From assembly GCA_040756715.1 (NCBI GenBank), contig JBFLYE010000015.1:1-18378 (forward strand): 18,378 nucleotides of DNA, written 5' to 3'. Below, piece after piece: positions 1 through 18,278 of this stretch. The number at the start of each line of letters is the position of its first letter. The first letter of the stretch is position 1. The translations under genes and the position numbers were made by a program. Below the pieces are notes generated by a model. It was not told the origin of the DNA and searched no databases. It saw only the letters and a list, made by a program, of their open reading frames with translations. This stretch comes from JBFLYE01 sp040756715 [NCBI: bacterium] (lineage in GTDB: Bacteria > UBA9089 > UBA9088).

Positions 1-124
1 AACTTAACCTTTTTCAATTCAAAATTCAAAATTTAGAATTCAAAATTTCTTAAAAGGTGGATGAATTTTTAACAGATAAACACAACCCTATCTATTTTTG
101 CACTAAGTAATGGAAGATACTATA
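1..124 (+). mobile_element. MITE copy 1, right part (left part outside window)
   Basis: Positions 13-124 are identical, base for base, to 4359-4470 (112 bp at a constant offset of 4346). Similarity continues to the window edge with small indels (1-12 against about 4349-4358). The second copy is complete and has the structure of a TA-flanked miniature inverted-repeat element, so this is taken as the right end of another copy in the same orientation. Its terminal ACTATA at 119-124 abuts coding sequence that starts in the middle of a beta-sandwich domain. This suggests that it too interrupts the giant surface-protein gene and that the 5' part of that gene lies to the left of the window. The element carries no recognisable gene. 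The 112-bp identity is seen directly; the insertion is inferred from copy 2. Confidence 0.82.
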
Positions 125-3100
125 TATTACACATCCTCAAATAAATCAAATTGCTATTTTTCCTTCACTGTCCCAGAGGACTTTTCTGGCAAGCTGACCC
201 TTGTCTTTGATGTGATGACAACATATAAACCTCCGTGGTGGATCCGTAATATCAAGCAAGCAGTCCTTAATGTAGAGAGTCTTCTTAAGTTAAGCCTAAA
301 AACAAGGACAACCAAAGATGGCTGGCAATTAGAAGCTGAATTAGTCAATCAATTAGGATTGGTCAAAGACAGCCAATTGATATTTGAGTTATTCAAAGGA
401 AAAGATATAGTATGGGAGCAGAAAGTAGAGATAGGTGATCTAACAGAAGACATCAGGACAATCGAAGGGATAGATTTAGACCCTTCTCTGATTTACTTTA
501 ATCAGCAATACCAATTAAAATCAAGATTTGACTTTGACTGGCAAGAGAAAAGATATTCTGTATATGCCCCTACCTTAGTCCTCAAACTATCCAATATCGT
601 AGACCTAAGACTAAAGACCCTCATGCTTCATTGGCGTTACCCTTTAGAGGGAGAGATATTCATCTTAAACAATGGAGACTTTAAGGAAGACCTAAATGTT
701 ACCATTTCTATTCCAGACCTTGGATTTATCTCCACCCAATCTATCACCCTATTACCCGCAGGAACAGCCGCTATTCCCTTCAATCCCATTATCCCAGAAA
801 CAATAGAACCAGGGAAGCATAACATATATCTTAGATATCAGTTGCCAAATGGAAGTTTCATAGAGAAGGGGTTTGGTTTTGTCCTTCCTCAATCAAACCT
901 TGGGCTCATCTTAGAGAAGATAGATTACTTAGCTGGTGAAGTAGGAAGCATAACTGTAAGAAATAGGGGAGGAGTGGATACAACCTATGAATATTACGGA
1001 ACCCTATCTGAAGGATATTATGGAGGCAAGAGAGTGGTTGAATTCATTGGGACAGGAACAGTCAAAGCTGATGGCTCAAGCACCATCTGCTTCTCTATCC
1101 CTACCTGGATAACAGAAGAAAGGCATTTTTTGGTAGTAGATTATAAGGATAAGAGGACGGGAGAAGAAAGAAGATTACGGAAATGGTTGCAATTGACTGG
1201 GTTGATCAAACTTAGAGTTGATAAAATAGAATACTTAGCTGGTGAAGCAGGAGAGGTAATAGTGGATAATACAACAGCCAAAGATTTGGAGTATGACTAT
1301 CTGATCAATCTCTTTAAAGAAGAAAGTAAGGTGGTTGAGTTTGCTGGAACAGGAAGTGTCCAGGCTGGTGGCTCAAGCACCATCTCTTTCTCTGCCCCTG
1401 TTCGGATGTTTGATGAAAATTATAGAATAGAGGTAGAATGCATAGATAAGGAGACAGGAAGATCTATTAAATTAGAGAAAGAAATCTATGTAAGCAGATT
1501 GCTTGAGCTGAGTCTGGATAAGGAAGATTACTTAGGTGGAGAGATAGGAAGTATAACGGTAAAGAATGTAGGAGCAGTGGATTCAGATTATGAATATTAT
1601 GGCACCATCTCTATGGGAGAATGGTCTTCTCTATTTGGTGGAACAGGAACAGTCAAAGCTGGAGGTTCTGCTACCATCAACTTTCTTGTTCCTGTTAGGA
1701 TGATTGAGGGATGGTATGGGTTGGAATTAGAGATCATAGACAGAGCATCAGGAGAATCGCTCAACTGGTCTACAAAGATAAAGGTAAGAGGATTGCTTGA
1801 GCTGAGTCTGGATAAGAAAGATTACTTAGCAGGAGAGATAGGAAGTATAACGGTAAGGAATACCTCAGCAACAGACTCAACCTATGAATATTATGGCACT
1901 ATATCTACCCCAGGATATTCTTCAGGGTTTAGTGGAACAGGAACAGTTAAGGCTATTAGCACCAGCACCATCAACTTCTTTGCTCCTGTTAGGATAGTAG
2001 AAGAATATTATGAGTTGATGGCAGAGATTAAGGATAAGGCTACAGGAAGGTCATTCAGATTGGAGAAGGAGATAAAAGTAAGTGGCTTGCTCAAACTTAT
2101 CTTGGAAAAGACGGAGTATTCAGTAGGTGAAGAGATAGAGGCAAGATTAAAGAATGTGGGATTTCAAGAGAAGGAGATCAATTATACCATCAGATTGGCT
2201 GATTGGTATGATAGAGAAATGGCTAAAAATCTTGGAACAGAGACTATTAGTCCTTCAGAATCAAAGCCAATCAAGCTCACTATTCCAGACCAGGCGGTAG
2301 ATGGTCAATATCAGTTGATGGTTATCTGTAAAGATTCAGTCTATGGAGACTCCATAACCTTTGAGAGAACCATCAATATAGCAGGATTGAAAGGAGAGCT
2401 TACGGTAAATACCAATAAGGAAGCATATTTTCTTACCGAGCCTATCACTGCCAAAGCATATCTTAATAACCAGGATGGAAAGATAGAGGATGGCAGCTTA
2501 AGCTTAGGGATATACACGGGCTTAGAGGGATGGATAAACTATTCTTTTATCAAGAGTGTCAACTCAATAGTAGCCGATGGCAGATGGGTCTGGTTTGGCA
2601 CAGATTTTGGTGTATCAAGGTATGATAAAATAACCGGTAGTTGGACTAATTATACTAAAGATAATAGTAGATTAGCAAGTGATAAGATAAGCTCCCTTGC
2701 TATAGATGATTCAGTAAGTGATGAGATAAGCTCCCTTGCTGTAGATGATAAGGATGTCTGGATGGGAACAAGGGATGGTGTAGCAAGGTTAAATAAAATA
2801 ACCGGTAGCTGGACTACATATACTACAGAAAATAGTGGCTTGGTAGATAATGATGTTAGGGCAATAGCAGTAGATGGAGAGGACATCTGGATTGGGACAG
2901 AGGAGGGGATAGCAAGGCTGAATAAGGCAACTAATGAATGGGCAACCTATACCACAGAGAATAGTGGCTTGCTAAGCGATAATATTACTGCTATTGCTGT
3001 AGATAAAGATGATGTCTGGTTTGGAACAATAGATGGTGTCTTGAGATTGAATAAGATAAGTGGTAAATGGACTGCATATACGATTAAAAACAGTGGCTTA

Positions 3101-4234
3101 GCGAATAATTGGATCCGTGCAATAGCAGGGGATGGAATTTATGTATGGTTTGCGGGTTGGGAGCAGAGTGGGGACTATGGGGTTGGAGTCTCAAAGGGAG
3201 TCTCAAGATTGAATAAGCTAGATAATACCTGGATTACCTACACCACAAAGAACAGCGGTCTTTCCAATAATGATGTGGGAGCAATCGCAATCGATGGCAA
3301 TGATCTCTGGTTTGGAACAGATTATAGTGGTGTATCAAGATATAATAATGAGATATGGCTGACCTACAATACGGAAAACAGTGAGTTAATCGACGACCAT
3401 ATTGCTGCTATTGCCGGGGATGATGAATCTGTTTGGTTTGGAACAGGGGAGGGGGTAAGCAGATACCAAAAGAGGGGGAAGCTAATTTGGAAGGAGAACT
3501 TCCCCGTTAATCTTCCTGAAATAAGCAATAGGGAGATTTCTACTTTAGTAGGCACATTGGGTATTACTGGCAAATTATACTTAAAAGGAGAGCTATACTC
3601 TGCTTTTGAACAACTAATTGCCCAAGATGAGTATGGATTTTACATCTCCCCAGGCACAGTCACCTTAACCTTAGAGACAGACAAGAGAACCTATAAGGAA
3701 GGAGAGCCGATTACGATAAGTGGTGAGGTTAAGAATTGGGCTGATCTATCAACCGATGAGCTAACCCTAAGGGTTAATATAGGCACAATAACTATTCATA
3801 CCGAAACCTTTAGCTTAGTTCCGGGAGGAACCCATCCCTTTGCTCTTACTGCTTCTGCTGATTCCTCTTTTATCTTGAAGGGTATGGTAGAAAGCCCAGC
3901 AATCGGCACAGTTGCTGTGGCAGAATATATTGAGGTAGAGCCTTCATTATTAGAGGTTATAATTGATGCCCCTGATCTAGTAGGAAGGGGAACAAATAGC
4001 TTCAGAGTGATATTTGAGAACAAAGGAAAGGAAGAGGTAGAAATCAATTATCAATTAGCAATTGGCAATGGTCAATTATCAGAGGGGAGTATAAGTATTA
4101 AAGCAGGAGAGAGTGAGGTGATTGAAGGGGAGTTTAGTCTGTTAGAGGATGGGACGATTACATTAGTTCTCTCGGGTGATGTAGTAGGCATCTATACTAA
4201 GTTTGTAGAGTTTGGGGAGAAGGTAGATATATAG
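110..4234 (+). CDS. Giant CARDB / seven-bladed propeller surface protein, middle segment (interrupted by MITEs)
   Basis: Open frame of 1374 codons made almost wholly of beta-sandwich domains of the CARDB type. Related domains of about 98-100 residues begin near residues 264, 364, 464, 562 and 660, each with a hallmark like L-x-L-D-K-x-x-Y-L-x-G-E-x-G-S-I-T-V-x-N. A further domain starts near 763. Residues about 805-1130 hold seven blades with motif V-W-F-G-T-x-x-G-V-S-R followed by W-T-x-Y-T-x-x-N-S-G-L, like the Reg_prop/two-component-regulator type of beta-propeller. More CARDB-like modules follow to the end. There is no signal peptide, no Shine-Dalgarno sequence before ATG 110, and an in-frame stop at 104-106. 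The first five codons belong to MITE copy 1, and the native reading starts mid-domain. The stop at 4232-4234 lies inside MITE copy 2. The frame is therefore best read as the middle of a larger secreted or cell-surface gene that continues at 4471. Its ligand is unknown; CARDB proteins commonly act in adhesion or as extracellular scaffolds. Confidence 0.85.
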   Translation: MEDTIYYTSSNKSNCYFSFTVPEDFSGKLTLVFDVMTTYKPPWWIRNIKQAVLNVESLLKLSLKTRTTKDGWQLEAELVNQLGLVKDSQLIFELFKGKDIVWEQKVEIGDLTEDIRTIEGIDLDPSLIYFNQQYQLKSRFDFDWQEKRYSVYAPTLVLKLSNIVDLRLKTLMLHWRYPLEGEIFILNNGDFKEDLNVTISIPDLGFISTQSITLLPAGTAAIPFNPIIPETIEPGKHNIYLRYQLPNGSFIEKGFGFVLPQSNLGLILEKIDYLAGEVGSITVRNRGGVDTTYEYYGTLSEGYYGGKRVVEFIGTGTVKADGSSTICFSIPTWITEERHFLVVDYKDKRTGEERRLRKWLQLTGLIKLRVDKIEYLAGEAGEVIVDNTTAKDLEYDYLINLFKEESKVVEFAGTGSVQAGGSSTISFSAPVRMFDENYRIEVECIDKETGRSIKLEKEIYVSRLLELSLDKEDYLGGEIGSITVKNVGAVDSDYEYYGTISMGEWSSLFGGTGTVKAGGSATINFLVPVRMIEGWYGLELEIIDRASGESLNWSTKIKVRGLLELSLDKKDYLAGEIGSITVRNTSATDSTYEYYGTISTPGYSSGFSGTGTVKAISTSTINFFAPVRIVEEYYELMAEIKDKATGRSFRLEKEIKVSGLLKLILEKTEYSVGEEIEARLKNVGFQEKEINYTIRLADWYDREMAKNLGTETISPSESKPIKLTIPDQAVDGQYQLMVICKDSVYGDSITFERTINIAGLKGELTVNTNKEAYFLTEPITAKAYLNNQDGKIEDGSLSLGIYTGLEGWINYSFIKSVNSIVADGRWVWFGTDFGVSRYDKITGSWTNYTKDNSRLASDKISSLAIDDSVSDEISSLAVDDKDVWMGTRDGVARLNKITGSWTTYTTENSGLVDNDVRAIAVDGEDIWIGTEEGIARLNKATNEWATYTTENSGLLSDNITAIAVDKDDVWFGTIDGVLRLNKISGKWTAYTIKNSGLANNWIRAIAGDGIYVWFAGWEQSGDYGVGVSKGVSRLNKLDNTWITYTTKNSGLSNNDVGAIAIDGNDLWFGTDYSGVSRYNNEIWLTYNTENSELIDDHIAAIAGDDESVWFGTGEGVSRYQKRGKLIWKENFPVNLPEISNREISTLVGTLGITGKLYLKGELYSAFEQLIAQDEYGFYISPGTVTLTLETDKRTYKEGEPITISGEVKNWADLSTDELTLRVNIGTITIHTETFSLVPGGTHPFALTASADSSFILKGMVESPAIGTVAVAEYIEVEPSLLEVIIDAPDLVGRGTNSFRVIFENKGKEEVEINYQLAIGNGQLSEGSISIKAGESEVIEGEFSLLEDGTITLVLSGDVVGIYTKFVEFGEKVDI
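899..2090 (+). repeat. Tandem CARDB domain repeats, about 294-300 bp period
   Basis: Four consecutive domain units start near 899, 1200, 1497 and 1791, and a more divergent fifth starts near 2085. The units at 1497 and 1791 are 294 bp (98 codons) apart and nearly identical over their first 70 bp, with only a few substitutions. That indicates recent duplication or gene conversion between them. The other pairs are clearly homologous at protein level but more diverged. Confidence 0.85.
2678..2755 (+). repeat. In-frame 39-bp tandem duplication inside the propeller
   Basis: Two adjacent 39-bp units (2678-2716 and 2717-2755) encode S-D-K-I-S-S-L-A-I-D-D-S-V and then S-D-E-I-S-S-L-A-V-D-D-K-D. The duplication falls on the inner strand at the start of the second propeller blade and adds 13 residues without breaking the frame. 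The extra strand should bulge out as a loop. Confidence 0.9.
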
Positions 4235-4258
4235 TTAATTCCATAACGCTTTACAAAA
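4230..4258 (+). repeat. Left terminal inverted repeat of MITE copy 2
   Basis: Begins TATAGTTAATTCCATAAC. Against the reverse complement of 4442-4470 it matches at about 20 of 29 positions, including TATAGT, TTCCAT and the closing CAAAA. Outside this block a shared TGTGTTTA appears on both arms (4263-4270, and as its complement near 4423-4430), so the inverted homology extends inward with gaps. Confidence 0.75.
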
Positions 4259-4468
4259 TGTATGTGTTTAGATAATCTTAAGGAAAACTTTATAAAATTA
4301 TGAATTTTGAATGTTGAATTTTGAATTAAAAGGGGAAAAATTTTATAAAACTTAAACCTTCAATTCAAAATTCAAAATTTAGAATTCAAAATTTCTTAAA
4401 AGGTGGATGAATTTTTAACAGATAAACACAACCCTATCTATTTTTGCACTAAGTAATGGAAGATACTA
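4232..4468 (+). mobile_element. MITE copy 2 (TA-flanked, about 237 bp) splitting the surface-protein gene
   Basis: Non-coding element bounded by TA at 4230-4231 and 4469-4470. The flanks read TATA on both sides, so the exact duplication could be TA or TATA. The ends are imperfect inverted repeats (4230-4258 and 4442-4470). Inside, 4302-4327 and 4361-4394 are complementary AT-rich arms built from TTGAATTTTGAATT and its complement, so the whole element can fold into a long hairpin. It has no transposase. A TA target duplication with TIRs is the signature of IS630/Tc1-mariner-type transposition, so the element was probably mobilised in trans; the family is inferred. Deleting 4232-4470 (239 bp, not a multiple of three) joins the two large frames in phase. 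A partial second copy with 112 identical bases sits at 1-124. Confidence 0.82.
4302..4394 (+). repeat. Internal AT-rich hairpin of the MITE
   Basis: The left arm 4302-4327 is made of repeated GAATTTTGAAT units and the right arm 4361-4394 of the complementary ATTCAAAATT units. They pair over about 24-26 bases with small gaps around a loop of roughly 33 bases containing AAAAGGGGAAAAA. It is too poor in G and C to look like an ordinary intrinsic terminator. Confidence 0.7.
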
Positions 4469-4470
4469 TA
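4442..4470 (-). repeat. Right terminal inverted repeat of MITE copy 2
   Basis: Read on the minus strand it begins TATAGTATCTTCCATTAC and pairs with the left end at 4230-4258. It contains the ATG at 4456-4458 that opens the downstream frame. The same 29 bases are present in copy 1 at 96-124. Confidence 0.75.
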
Positions 4471-6936
4471 GAAGTAGACCCAGAGCTCTTCTATCCCGAA
4501 GGCTGGGTGGGAATACCCATAACCCTTACCAATCAGGGCAGATTGGATTCTTCATTCTCGGTAAGTTTTAGCTTGGAAAAGATAAATAAGATGATAAAAT
4601 CTCTTGCTCCCAGCCAGACCTTGACTGATCTAAAGATAATCAATAGCTCTAAAGGAGTAAAGGTAAGAGAAGAGAAAAAGAAGGGCTTATTCGCCTTAGG
4701 TGATTCTTCCCGGCCAGTCAATATAGAGCTTCCTGCCGGTGGCTTTGTCCTCTTCCATCTCCTCTATGAGCTTTCTGAGGGTGACTACAAAATAGACTAT
4801 GAGTATTTTAGAAAGAAAGGAAGCGAGAGCTTTGGGGTGCGTAATTATAATGTTGTCTCTATCAAGGATTTTGAGCTATCTATAGACTTATCTACCATAA
4901 CCGTTAAGTTTGAGATTGAAAACAAGGGAGTAAATGAATTCAAGGGTAGTTTCAACCTTGACTTGGAGCTATCTGCTACTGAGACTGCCACGGGTAGTAT
5001 CACCATTCCTATCAATCAATCAGAGAAGAAGGAATTCAAATTTCCTATCCCAGATGAGGTTATCCCTGGTATCTACTCTGCTAAATTGGGTATTTATCAT
5101 GATAAGACAAAAATAGCTGAGAAGATAAAGGAATACAGGATTGAGCCCCTATTTGTGATTACCTCTGTTAAACTGAATGGAAGCGAAACCGAATCCTTGC
5201 ACCTCTATCCGGGAGGAGATTATGAATTATCTTTAAAGATAGAAAACAGGGGTAATCTTGAGGCTTCCTGTAAGCTCATCTGCAGCCTATTCAATATGAG
5301 AGAAGAGGGATTGATCAACCTTCCGGTTGGCTCATCAACCAAGATTTCCTTCCCCCTCTCTATCTGTGAAGACTTTACCTATGAAGATACCCAGCTTAAA
5401 CTCATCTTAGACTATGAAAGGGCAACCAAAGAGCCAGGCGTCTATTATCTCCCAGTCAAGGTCTATGGCATCTTCCTTGAGGTATCTTCCCAGCTTGATA
5501 AAGACTTCTACAAGATAGATGATAAGGCAACCTTGACCATACAGATTAAAAACATCTCGCAATATATAGGGAGTTTCTCAGTCTATGCTGAGGTAAGCCT
5601 CTATGATTATACCACCAAAACCCTTTTCACTTTGGTTGGCACAGAGACCAAGAGCTTATTATTTTCTGAGATACCTATAGCAGGCTTTGACCAGAAGCTC
5701 TTCTATTCTCTCTGCTACAGGAGTGGGAAGGTGATCTACATAAACTCCCTCTATCTATATGAGGAAGATTATTTCATGGTCTATAGCCCTCAAGATTATT
5801 ACCAACCAGGCACCCAGGCAGTCTTCATGGTAAAGGTCTCAGAACCAGGCACCCTAAGCTATCAAGTAAGTTATCTCCACTATGGCTTAGTAGAGGGTCT
5901 CTCAGGGACTCAAGGAGTGAGTGAGGGTGAGAATATTCTTATCTTAGATTTACCAGAATATCTGAGATTAGGTAGCTATGATTTAGAATGCCAATTCTTT
6001 AGAGAAGGAGAAAAAACCTTGATTAAGAAGATCAAGTTTGATGTAGCAGGTTTTGCCATCTTAACCGAAGGGCTCTATTTTGATAAGGATTACTATTTGG
6101 CTAAAGAGACGATGAGCGTAACCTTCTTGTTTAAACCAAAAGGAGAGATAGGCACAGCTACTCTAAGGGCCTGGGCATTAGCTCCTGATAGCACCAAAAC
6201 AATAGTCGGATTTGCCAAAAAAGACCTGTTCCTGAGAGATAATGTAGTTGAGGTGGTCTTGCCGATTAAGTTAGCCACAGAGTATTCTGGTATCCATACC
6301 CTTCAATATTGCTTCTTTAAGGGTAACAGGCTATTGAGCAATCGGATTTGTTTCTTTGATGTTAAAGATCTTGAAAACCCAAAGTCTCATCTATCTATTA
6401 AGGGAGATTACTTTGAGAAGAGAGAGATAGAGGTAGAGTTATGGGCAACGGATGGAAAGGGGACAGGGATAAAAAATATCGTTCTCTTTAGCAAAAGGGA
6501 GGAAGAGGCAACCTACACTCCTTATGGCACGCGATCAACCAGTGGCACTATACTCTTTAAACCAGAGAGGGATGGGATATATCAGTTTATCAGCCAGGCT
6601 GAGGATAAAGCGGGTAATCTTGAGGCCTTCAAAGATCAACCAGAGGCAACCGCTACGGTCCTTGTTGAAGATAAAGCAATCATTGCCTTAGATAATAATG
6701 AGATTATTGTCTATCCTAATCCCTGCAAACAAGGAAAGTATGTCTACTTTAAAAATGTAAGTCAAGAAGCAATCATTAAAATTTATAACATTAAGGGTGA
6801 ATTGATCGAAAGGATAATTGTAGATGAGGAACCAGAGAAATGGGATGTAAGAGATATTGCCTCAGGGGTTTATCTCTACCTTATCCAAGATGTATCCTCT
6901 AACAAAAGGATAGGAAAGATCGGCGTGATAAAATGA
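4456..6936 (+). CDS. Giant CARDB surface protein, C-terminal segment with FlgD-like/Por-sorting-type domain
   Basis: Open frame of 826 codons, seemingly the 3' part of the same gene as 110-4234. Residues 1-5 (M-E-D-T-I) are encoded by the MITE. Native sequence resumes at codon 6 with E-V-D-P-E-L-F-Y-P-E-G, the remainder of a CARDB domain whose first strand ends the upstream frame. Several CARDB-like sandwiches follow to about residue 620. Residues about 640-735 form an Ig-like module with E-D-K-A-G-N-L-E, as in OmpL47-like domains. Residues about 750-826 form a FlgD-like/type A sorting domain: V-Y-P-N-P-C, I-K-I-Y-N-I-K-G-E-L and D-I-A-S-G-V-Y-L-Y-L. Such C-terminal domains direct export or anchoring at the cell surface in several diderm phyla, by T9SS in Bacteroidetes; whether T9SS exists here is unknown. 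There is no signal peptide and no Shine-Dalgarno sequence, as expected for a gene fragment. The stop overlaps the start of a small ORF (ATGA). Confidence 0.85.
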   Translation: MEDTIEVDPELFYPEGWVGIPITLTNQGRLDSSFSVSFSLEKINKMIKSLAPSQTLTDLKIINSSKGVKVREEKKKGLFALGDSSRPVNIELPAGGFVLFHLLYELSEGDYKIDYEYFRKKGSESFGVRNYNVVSIKDFELSIDLSTITVKFEIENKGVNEFKGSFNLDLELSATETATGSITIPINQSEKKEFKFPIPDEVIPGIYSAKLGIYHDKTKIAEKIKEYRIEPLFVITSVKLNGSETESLHLYPGGDYELSLKIENRGNLEASCKLICSLFNMREEGLINLPVGSSTKISFPLSICEDFTYEDTQLKLILDYERATKEPGVYYLPVKVYGIFLEVSSQLDKDFYKIDDKATLTIQIKNISQYIGSFSVYAEVSLYDYTTKTLFTLVGTETKSLLFSEIPIAGFDQKLFYSLCYRSGKVIYINSLYLYEEDYFMVYSPQDYYQPGTQAVFMVKVSEPGTLSYQVSYLHYGLVEGLSGTQGVSEGENILILDLPEYLRLGSYDLECQFFREGEKTLIKKIKFDVAGFAILTEGLYFDKDYYLAKETMSVTFLFKPKGEIGTATLRAWALAPDSTKTIVGFAKKDLFLRDNVVEVVLPIKLATEYSGIHTLQYCFFKGNRLLSNRICFFDVKDLENPKSHLSIKGDYFEKREIEVELWATDGKGTGIKNIVLFSKREEEATYTPYGTRSTSGTILFKPERDGIYQFISQAEDKAGNLEAFKDQPEATATVLVEDKAIIALDNNEIIVYPNPCKQGKYVYFKNVSQEAIIKIYNIKGELIERIIVDEEPEKWDVRDIASGVYLYLIQDVSSNKRIGKIGVIK

Positions 6937-18184: not shown

Positions 18185-18278
18185 AATTCATCATAAGTAT
18201 GTGTTTAGCTCCTTTAAAATCTGTTCATCTTATTGTTATCCCTATCAAAAGAAATTCAAAAGAACAATTCAAAATTCA
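18185..18278 (+). repeat. Possible decayed relative of the MITE
   Basis: GTATGTGTTTAG at 18197-18208 is identical to 4260-4271 in the left arm of the MITE. It is preceded by GAATTCATCATAA (compare TAATTCCATAAC in the element) and followed, at 18251-18278, by ATTCAAAA units like those of the element interior. The termini and the TA flanks cannot be recognised, so this may be a remnant or a coincidence of AT-rich sequence. Confidence 0.3.

Follow-up and report, generated by a model that had tools for sequence, protein, structure and literature searches.

Among the non-autonomous DNA transposons (MITEs) already described from bacteria, Chunjie of Geobacter uraniireducens is 235 bp long and occurs in 38 copies. 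As far as the excerpts of its description go, it resembles the element reported here in its length, in having tens of copies with conserved ends alongside many partial copies and size variants, and in that one of its copies disrupts an operon; its other copies are intergenic, whereas nine of the 37 complete copies that we read lie inside genes, a comparison made by description only (PMC10969869). The Correia/NEMIS and RUP elements, in the parts of the two accounts drawn upon here, share with it terminal inverted repeats, a target duplication, a terminal TA and a copy number of about 100 (PMC2229807, PMC10969869). Promoters on MITEs are known from the same excerpts: Correia elements carry outward-facing ones, whereas the outward promoter of the present element is a consensus match only, and the likeness is again one of description (PMC2229807, PMC10969869). 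The Rickettsia palindromic elements (RPEs) are likewise small elements lying inside protein-coding genes, but they are open and fused in frame with them (excerpts of PMC2229807, PMC10969869). Since the present element has stops in all frames and amounts to a net insertion of 239 bp, it cuts the gene, unlike an RPE. The kind of MITE is already known, and we do not present a start codon carried by a MITE as unpublished; the term “start codon” is absent from the main texts of PMC2229807 and PMC10969869. No paper describing this particular family was found in a literature search made by kind of element, not by sequence.

The window, i.e., the whole stretch of 18,378 nucleotides analysed, is contig C15 of a 1.55 Mb draft genome in 218 contigs. 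Positions 4232–4468 are occupied by a 237-bp AT-rich, non-coding element with a TA on both sides, and the features of the locus are as follows:

4232..4468, + strand: MITE of 237 bp, TAGT...ACTA, non-coding (from its sequence, its copies in the genome and stops in six frames)
4230..4231: left copy of the TA target duplication (duplication of TA seen at other sites)
4469..4470: right copy of the TA target duplication (same basis)
4230..4247, + strand: left terminal inverted repeat including the TA, TATAGTTAATTCCATAAC (14/18 match to the right end)
4453..4470, - strand: right terminal inverted repeat including the TA, outward reading GTAATGGAAGATACTATA (sequence comparison)
4289..4400: internal AT-rich hairpin with arms 4289–4330 and 4359–4400, 83% complementary (arm search, folding)
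4415..4444, + strand: promoter-like TTAACA-18-TATTTT directed outward at the right end (a match to the consensus only)
4456..4470, + strand: element-borne ATG GAA GAT ACT ATA, whose frame continues into the downstream gene half (sequence)
1..124, + strand: right half of a second element copy at the contig end (sequence match)
110..4234, + strand: upstream fragment of a multi-domain protein (Pfam matches of beta-propeller type; 110–124 and the stop at 4232–4234 are element-derived)
4471..6936, + strand: downstream fragment of the same gene (Pfam matches to CARDB and Por_Secre_tail; homologues across the join)

The inverted ends are imperfect, with TATAGTTAATTCCATAAC and the reverse complement of the other end, TATAGTATCTTCCATTAC, identical at 14 of 18 positions. 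Each of the six reading frames of the element is closed by 4–8 stops, and the fold of positions 4225–4480 has a z-score of -3.9, with none of 200 shuffled sequences as stable. The initial annotation, which had described inverted repeats, the lack of an ORF and a long internal hairpin, is borne out in all three respects. It had left the duplication as either TA or TATA; of these, TA stands: if TATA were taken, the joined frame would retain a stop, and TA is what the empty sites show.

The upstream ORF (110–4234) ends in FGEKVDI before a TAG stop at 4232–4234, inside the element, and the second ORF, downstream of the element, runs from 4456 to 6936. Deletion of 4232–4470 yields a single open frame of 1375 + 821 codons, i.e., the exact restoration that had been predicted. 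A 527-residue query spanning the join recovered matches in 13 of 19 genomes (the source genome and 18 relatives). Of the 34 matches listed, 19 by manual count run across the join, every one of the 13 genomes contributing at least one, and all 19 are free of stops; one of them is a paralogue in the same genome, on contig C124. When this paralogue and five chosen homologues from relatives were re-aligned, the 24 residues on either side of the join proved gapless in all six and the FGE before the join was retained in each, as in FGEKVDI|EVDPELFYPEG versus FGEKVDV|KVEPEIVYPLG. Relatives encoding two separate genes at this point were not seen, the frame being continuous in the 13 matched genomes. 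Together with the dispersed near-identical copies and the empty sites, these continuous homologues support the reading of the two large ORFs as one gene split by a TA-flanked MITE. Used as a query against the genome_contigs collection, the CARDB half retrieved no relative.

The ATG at 110, the apparent start of the first ORF, is itself element sequence, belonging to the second copy whose right half makes up positions 1–124 at the contig end; both fragment ORFs accordingly begin with an element-borne MEDTI. As the window begins inside this second copy, the gene has been cut at least twice.

The element is a MITE, with inverted ends, a TA duplication and many dispersed copies. At least 90 BLAST matches to it were found in the genome, at least 24 of which cover the 239-base query from end to end at 97% identity or more (40 of 259 candidates scored in both cases). 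Searches for the ends with up to two mismatches returned 112 left ends (100 of them listed) against 10 for the reversed-pattern control, and 100 right ends against a single control match; removal of duplicates leaves 92 right and 88 left ends, pointing to roughly 90–100 copies. Pairing of the listed ends gives at least 37 complete copies and 37 were read in sequence; 35 are common to both sets, so that there are at least 39 overall, with those at C23:10914 and C190:2741 known by position and standing outside the 37 read. Complete copies span 157–269 bp with both TAs counted, ten are identical to each other, and copies are dispersed in both orientations, with 106 half copies at contig ends. The element thus lies at scattered sites and is not merely a conserved promoter. 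Two long pairings of left and right ends, on C47 (about 1.9 kb) and C181 (about 2.5 kb), were rejected as a larger element: ordinary genes lie between the ends, and each pair consists of a chance right-end match and a truncated element.

Beyond the source genome, in a member of the same genus (G001), one complete copy combines the same ends with a different core, and a further right-half match (88%) lies on contig C72. In the other 12 matched genomes among the 61 searched, matches are confined to the AT-rich core (query positions 39–172). A degenerate pattern of the ends, searched exactly, matched five places in genome_contigs, which by eye look like chance matches without the element, and none in viral_contigs; both scans may leave out records close to this genome.

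Three empty counterparts of occupied sites were found elsewhere in the assembly: one in a gene that we take from its sequence to be trpB, one in a paralogue and one in an intergenic repeat. Comparison of empty and occupied sites shows TA becoming TA-element-TA. On contig C119 the presumed trpB reads through CACA-TA-GTATG without the element, whereas C97 has the element at that TA; a Pfam scan of the trpB half matches PALP up to position 124 of 295. The C138 paralogue of the gene on C60 reads GGCAGTAT-TA-AAGTAAAG where C60 carries the element, the two genes being 97% and 85% identical on the two sides. Finally, the sequences on either side of the copy at C174:13867 both have their match in an intergenic repeat at C174:16969 (90% over 73 bp), where the two stretches overlap by the TA. 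In a search with 32 half-copy flanks, only one, that of trpB, had a second, empty place (40 of 99 candidates scored). A search for joined sites was made with 32 of the 37 read copies, three being left out by choice and two for too short a flank; it found empty counterparts for two of the 32, each of them a diverged repeat or a paralogue (40 of 234 candidates scored). Contig C97 (3.1 kb) could not be taken as a simple occupied trpB allele: its first and last 124 bp are identical, and while one end holds trpB with the element, the other holds a 41-bp trpB-like piece at 92.7%. Given this overlap and the diverged flank, C97 may be a circle, a duplication, an assembly join or a rearrangement. For the insertion site in the window itself, the genome and relatives searched yielded no empty version, and hence the recency of that insertion is judged from copy identity only.

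By manual assignment, the nine in-gene copies among the 37 read are those on C15, C60, C63, C65 (at 375), C122 (at 1326), C167, C201, C161 and C181. Those on C181 and C161 cut, both at codon 7, genes that we take from their sequences to be rluD and lemA, respectively; Pfam matches to S4 and PseudoU_synth_2 back the former. In a response-regulator gene on C167, one half matches Response_reg and the other Trans_reg_C, the latter from profile position 18 onward, and an ATP-grasp gene on C65 is split such that its second half matches RimK from position 90. The Pfam scan gave no match for both halves of the C63 gene or the first halves of those on C65 and C201.

The age of copies was gauged from ungapped differences to the main type over the outer 170 bp, the youngest type having at most two; this type may partly mean the commonest source copy. 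By this measure, eight of the nine in-gene copies, as manually assigned, are of the youngest type compared to 11 of the 28 others (one-sided p 0.012). With cut-offs of zero and one difference, the in-gene figure is 7/9, against 9/28 (p 0.022) and 10/28 (p 0.034) of the others. The exception is the in-gene copy at C122:1326, to which another copy is identical. Runs of N occur in at least three complete copies, the interiors of copies may be consensus, and many contig breaks fall inside the element. The idea that the rluD and lemA copies are old, retained in-frame insertions, which a nearest-neighbour identity of 0.945 had suggested, was rejected: the value comes from a run of N in the C161 copy and a shortened core in the C181 copy, and their ends are identical to the main type.

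ORFs of at least 100 codons abut element ends in 30 of 174 cases inward and 28 of 174 outward, compared to 38.0% and 38.8% of 22,089 background TA sites with elements masked, these sites being from stretches mostly near element copies; the unmasked background (34.8% and 35.2%) gives the same outcome. Such ORFs are thus about half as frequent at element ends as at other TA sites. The youngest-type in-gene copies and this under-representation point to recent insertion and purging, and both results fit the loss with time of harmful insertions. The annotation had offered that the insertion was recent, or removed or tolerated in some way, and it is “recent” that the data best support.

IS630/Tc1-mariner elements insert at TA and duplicate it, as does this MITE; unlike them, however, it has no transposase. 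The TA target would agree with descent from IS630, but the single DDE_3 (IS630-type) match in the genome lies in an element (L031 on C164, about 1425–2560) whose transposase is in two overlapping frames and whose ends begin TAACGCAT, not TAGT. The IS630/mariner transposase with TATAGT-type repeats that the initial annotation had suggested looking for did not turn up: no transposase with the MITE ends was found at the PF13358 loci of G000–G004 or the PF01609 loci of G000 and G001, in a draft of 218 contigs. Every end tested at those loci has at least five mismatches, and G004 has no PF13358 locus.

We regard it as very probable that a non-autonomous DNA transposon inserted recently into a TA inside a single large gene for a multi-domain protein. 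The 237-bp element would have been moved by a trans-acting transposase, the TA target suiting the IS630/Tc1-mariner family, with the TA duplicated on insertion as it is at other copies. The upstream fragment now stops at the TAG furnished by the element's first bases. The downstream fragment, its native N-terminus lost, would be translatable only from a start in the element, e.g., the right-end ATG, or from an internal one. It retains a match to a C-terminal sorting domain and, because it is cut off from the gene start, is predicted probably to be without an export signal; as a result, the insertion most likely disables the protein. On this account insertions in genes would be young and in the course of being purged, and the data would be explained without any removal mechanism.

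Two other explanations need to be weighed against recent insertion. The element might be precisely removed from DNA or RNA, in the manner of an IES or an intron, leaving the cut genes functional. That nine genes among the complete copies are interrupted with their halves otherwise open, and that trpB is present both beside the element and without it, speak for such removal; but the youth of most in-gene copies and the roughly two-fold avoidance of ORFs look as if insertions do harm, empty second places are few (1/32 half-copy flanks, that of trpB, and 2/32 joined sites, both in diverged repeats or paralogues), and no Rfam family reaches its gathering score in the window. We consider precise removal highly improbable. 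Still less credible is an assembly artefact joining unrelated contigs through a high-copy repeat. The draft does offer grounds for suspicion, as 55 unpaired ends lie within 150 bases of a contig start, 106 copies are halves, some are scaffold gaps with N, and C97, the contig with trpB, overlaps itself at its ends and carries an odd 41-bp flank resembling trpB. The window, however, contains no N, and its two flanks code in a single frame for successive parts of one homologous protein, which a chance join would not produce.

A further reading concerns what recent insertion by the MITE leaves behind. The right end carries ATGGAAGATACTATA, whose outward reading is ATG GAA GAT ACT ATA (MEDTI). It could be a portable start module, combining an outward promoter with a near-leaderless ATG giving MEDTI-, such that insertions would be kept when this ATG falls in frame with the rest of the gene; we hold this tentatively, as the less probable side of the question. 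The same reading predicts, with no greater assurance, continued expression of the CARDB half downstream and of genes including rluD and lemA. Of the 18 ORFs of at least 100 codons that leave the right end, 12 are in frame with its ATG, whereas the left end has 2 of 10 in frame and the background of other TA sites gives 39.8% with or without masking (binomial p 0.019–0.020; Fisher one-sided p 0.023). Other ORF cut-offs give binomial p 0.003–0.018 and Fisher p 0.006–0.033. The ATG is retained in 86 of 92 right ends and is in frame with the remainders of both rluD (C181) and lemA (C161), which, judging by the reading frames, could restart there and lose only their first residues; moreover, the promoter-like TTAACA-18-TATTTT ends 11 bases before it.

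Against this, the excess was noticed post hoc with four cut-offs tried, and of the 18 ORFs two come from the split gene of the window, two or more of the rest (C59, C64) are questionable, and only a minority have been checked by homology. ORFs entering the left end in matching phase (6/12 versus a 40% background) have no clear bias, and the left ends, which show no bias, likewise contain an ATG in 80 of 88 cases. Chance readily yields promoter-like matches (four found, 1.5 expected), TTAACA is near that place in 45 of the 92 right ends (variant in 18, absent in 29), and no clear Shine-Dalgarno sequence precedes the ATG. That the element as a whole is a putative mobile translation-start cassette, with a right-end outward promoter and a leaderless-type ATG, we rate a shade lower again, as doubtful. 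If it were one, insertion early in a gene would swap the native first residues for MEDTI- with the protein still working, as for rluD and lemA, while insertion late in a gene would yield two polypeptides, each with its own start; the two CARDB fragments, which both begin with MEDTI, would be an example. A working right-end ATG would mean that MITEs can re-start genes in frame, beyond breaking them or bringing promoters.

These results document a recent burst of a MITE in this genome, with nine genes cut among the 37 complete copies read. The element also accounts for about a quarter of the contig ends in the draft (106 half copies against 218 contigs), and genes of this draft assembly may carry annotations as two proteins.

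Several neighbouring repeats were also observed. AATTCAA heptamer repeats of the core match, apart from the MITE ends, in 12 other genomes (e.g., G012, G014 and G016–G018), which belong to the phylum set or, in two cases, are more distant. The sequence GTATGTGTTTA (e.g., at window position 18197 and at L103, L107, L109 and L111) occurs at 20 distinct places among the examined loci of the source genome (G000), three of them in the MITE itself (window position 4260, L022 and L113); by eye, the sequence on its left is unique whereas various repeats follow on its right, and it looks like the boundary of another repeat family. In G001, loci L091–L097 hold another repeat in which an end, GTAACTATTCACCCTATAGGG, is joined to a subterminal GTATATGTTTAGATAATGTTAAGG and a different core. 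GTATATGTTTAGATAATGTTAAGG is two mismatches from the subterminal stretch of the MITE, and the build is modular, with ends and cores exchanged. The G001 copy on its contig C42 (L073/L100) shares its outer ends with the MITE (57 bp identical, 68 bp at 94%), and in its core AGAGCACCAG-type repeats replace the AATTCAA heptamer hairpin. Nested insertion is also seen, the copies at C126:13775 (L012) and C122:6972 (L007) lying within another copy's end repeat or immediately next to it.
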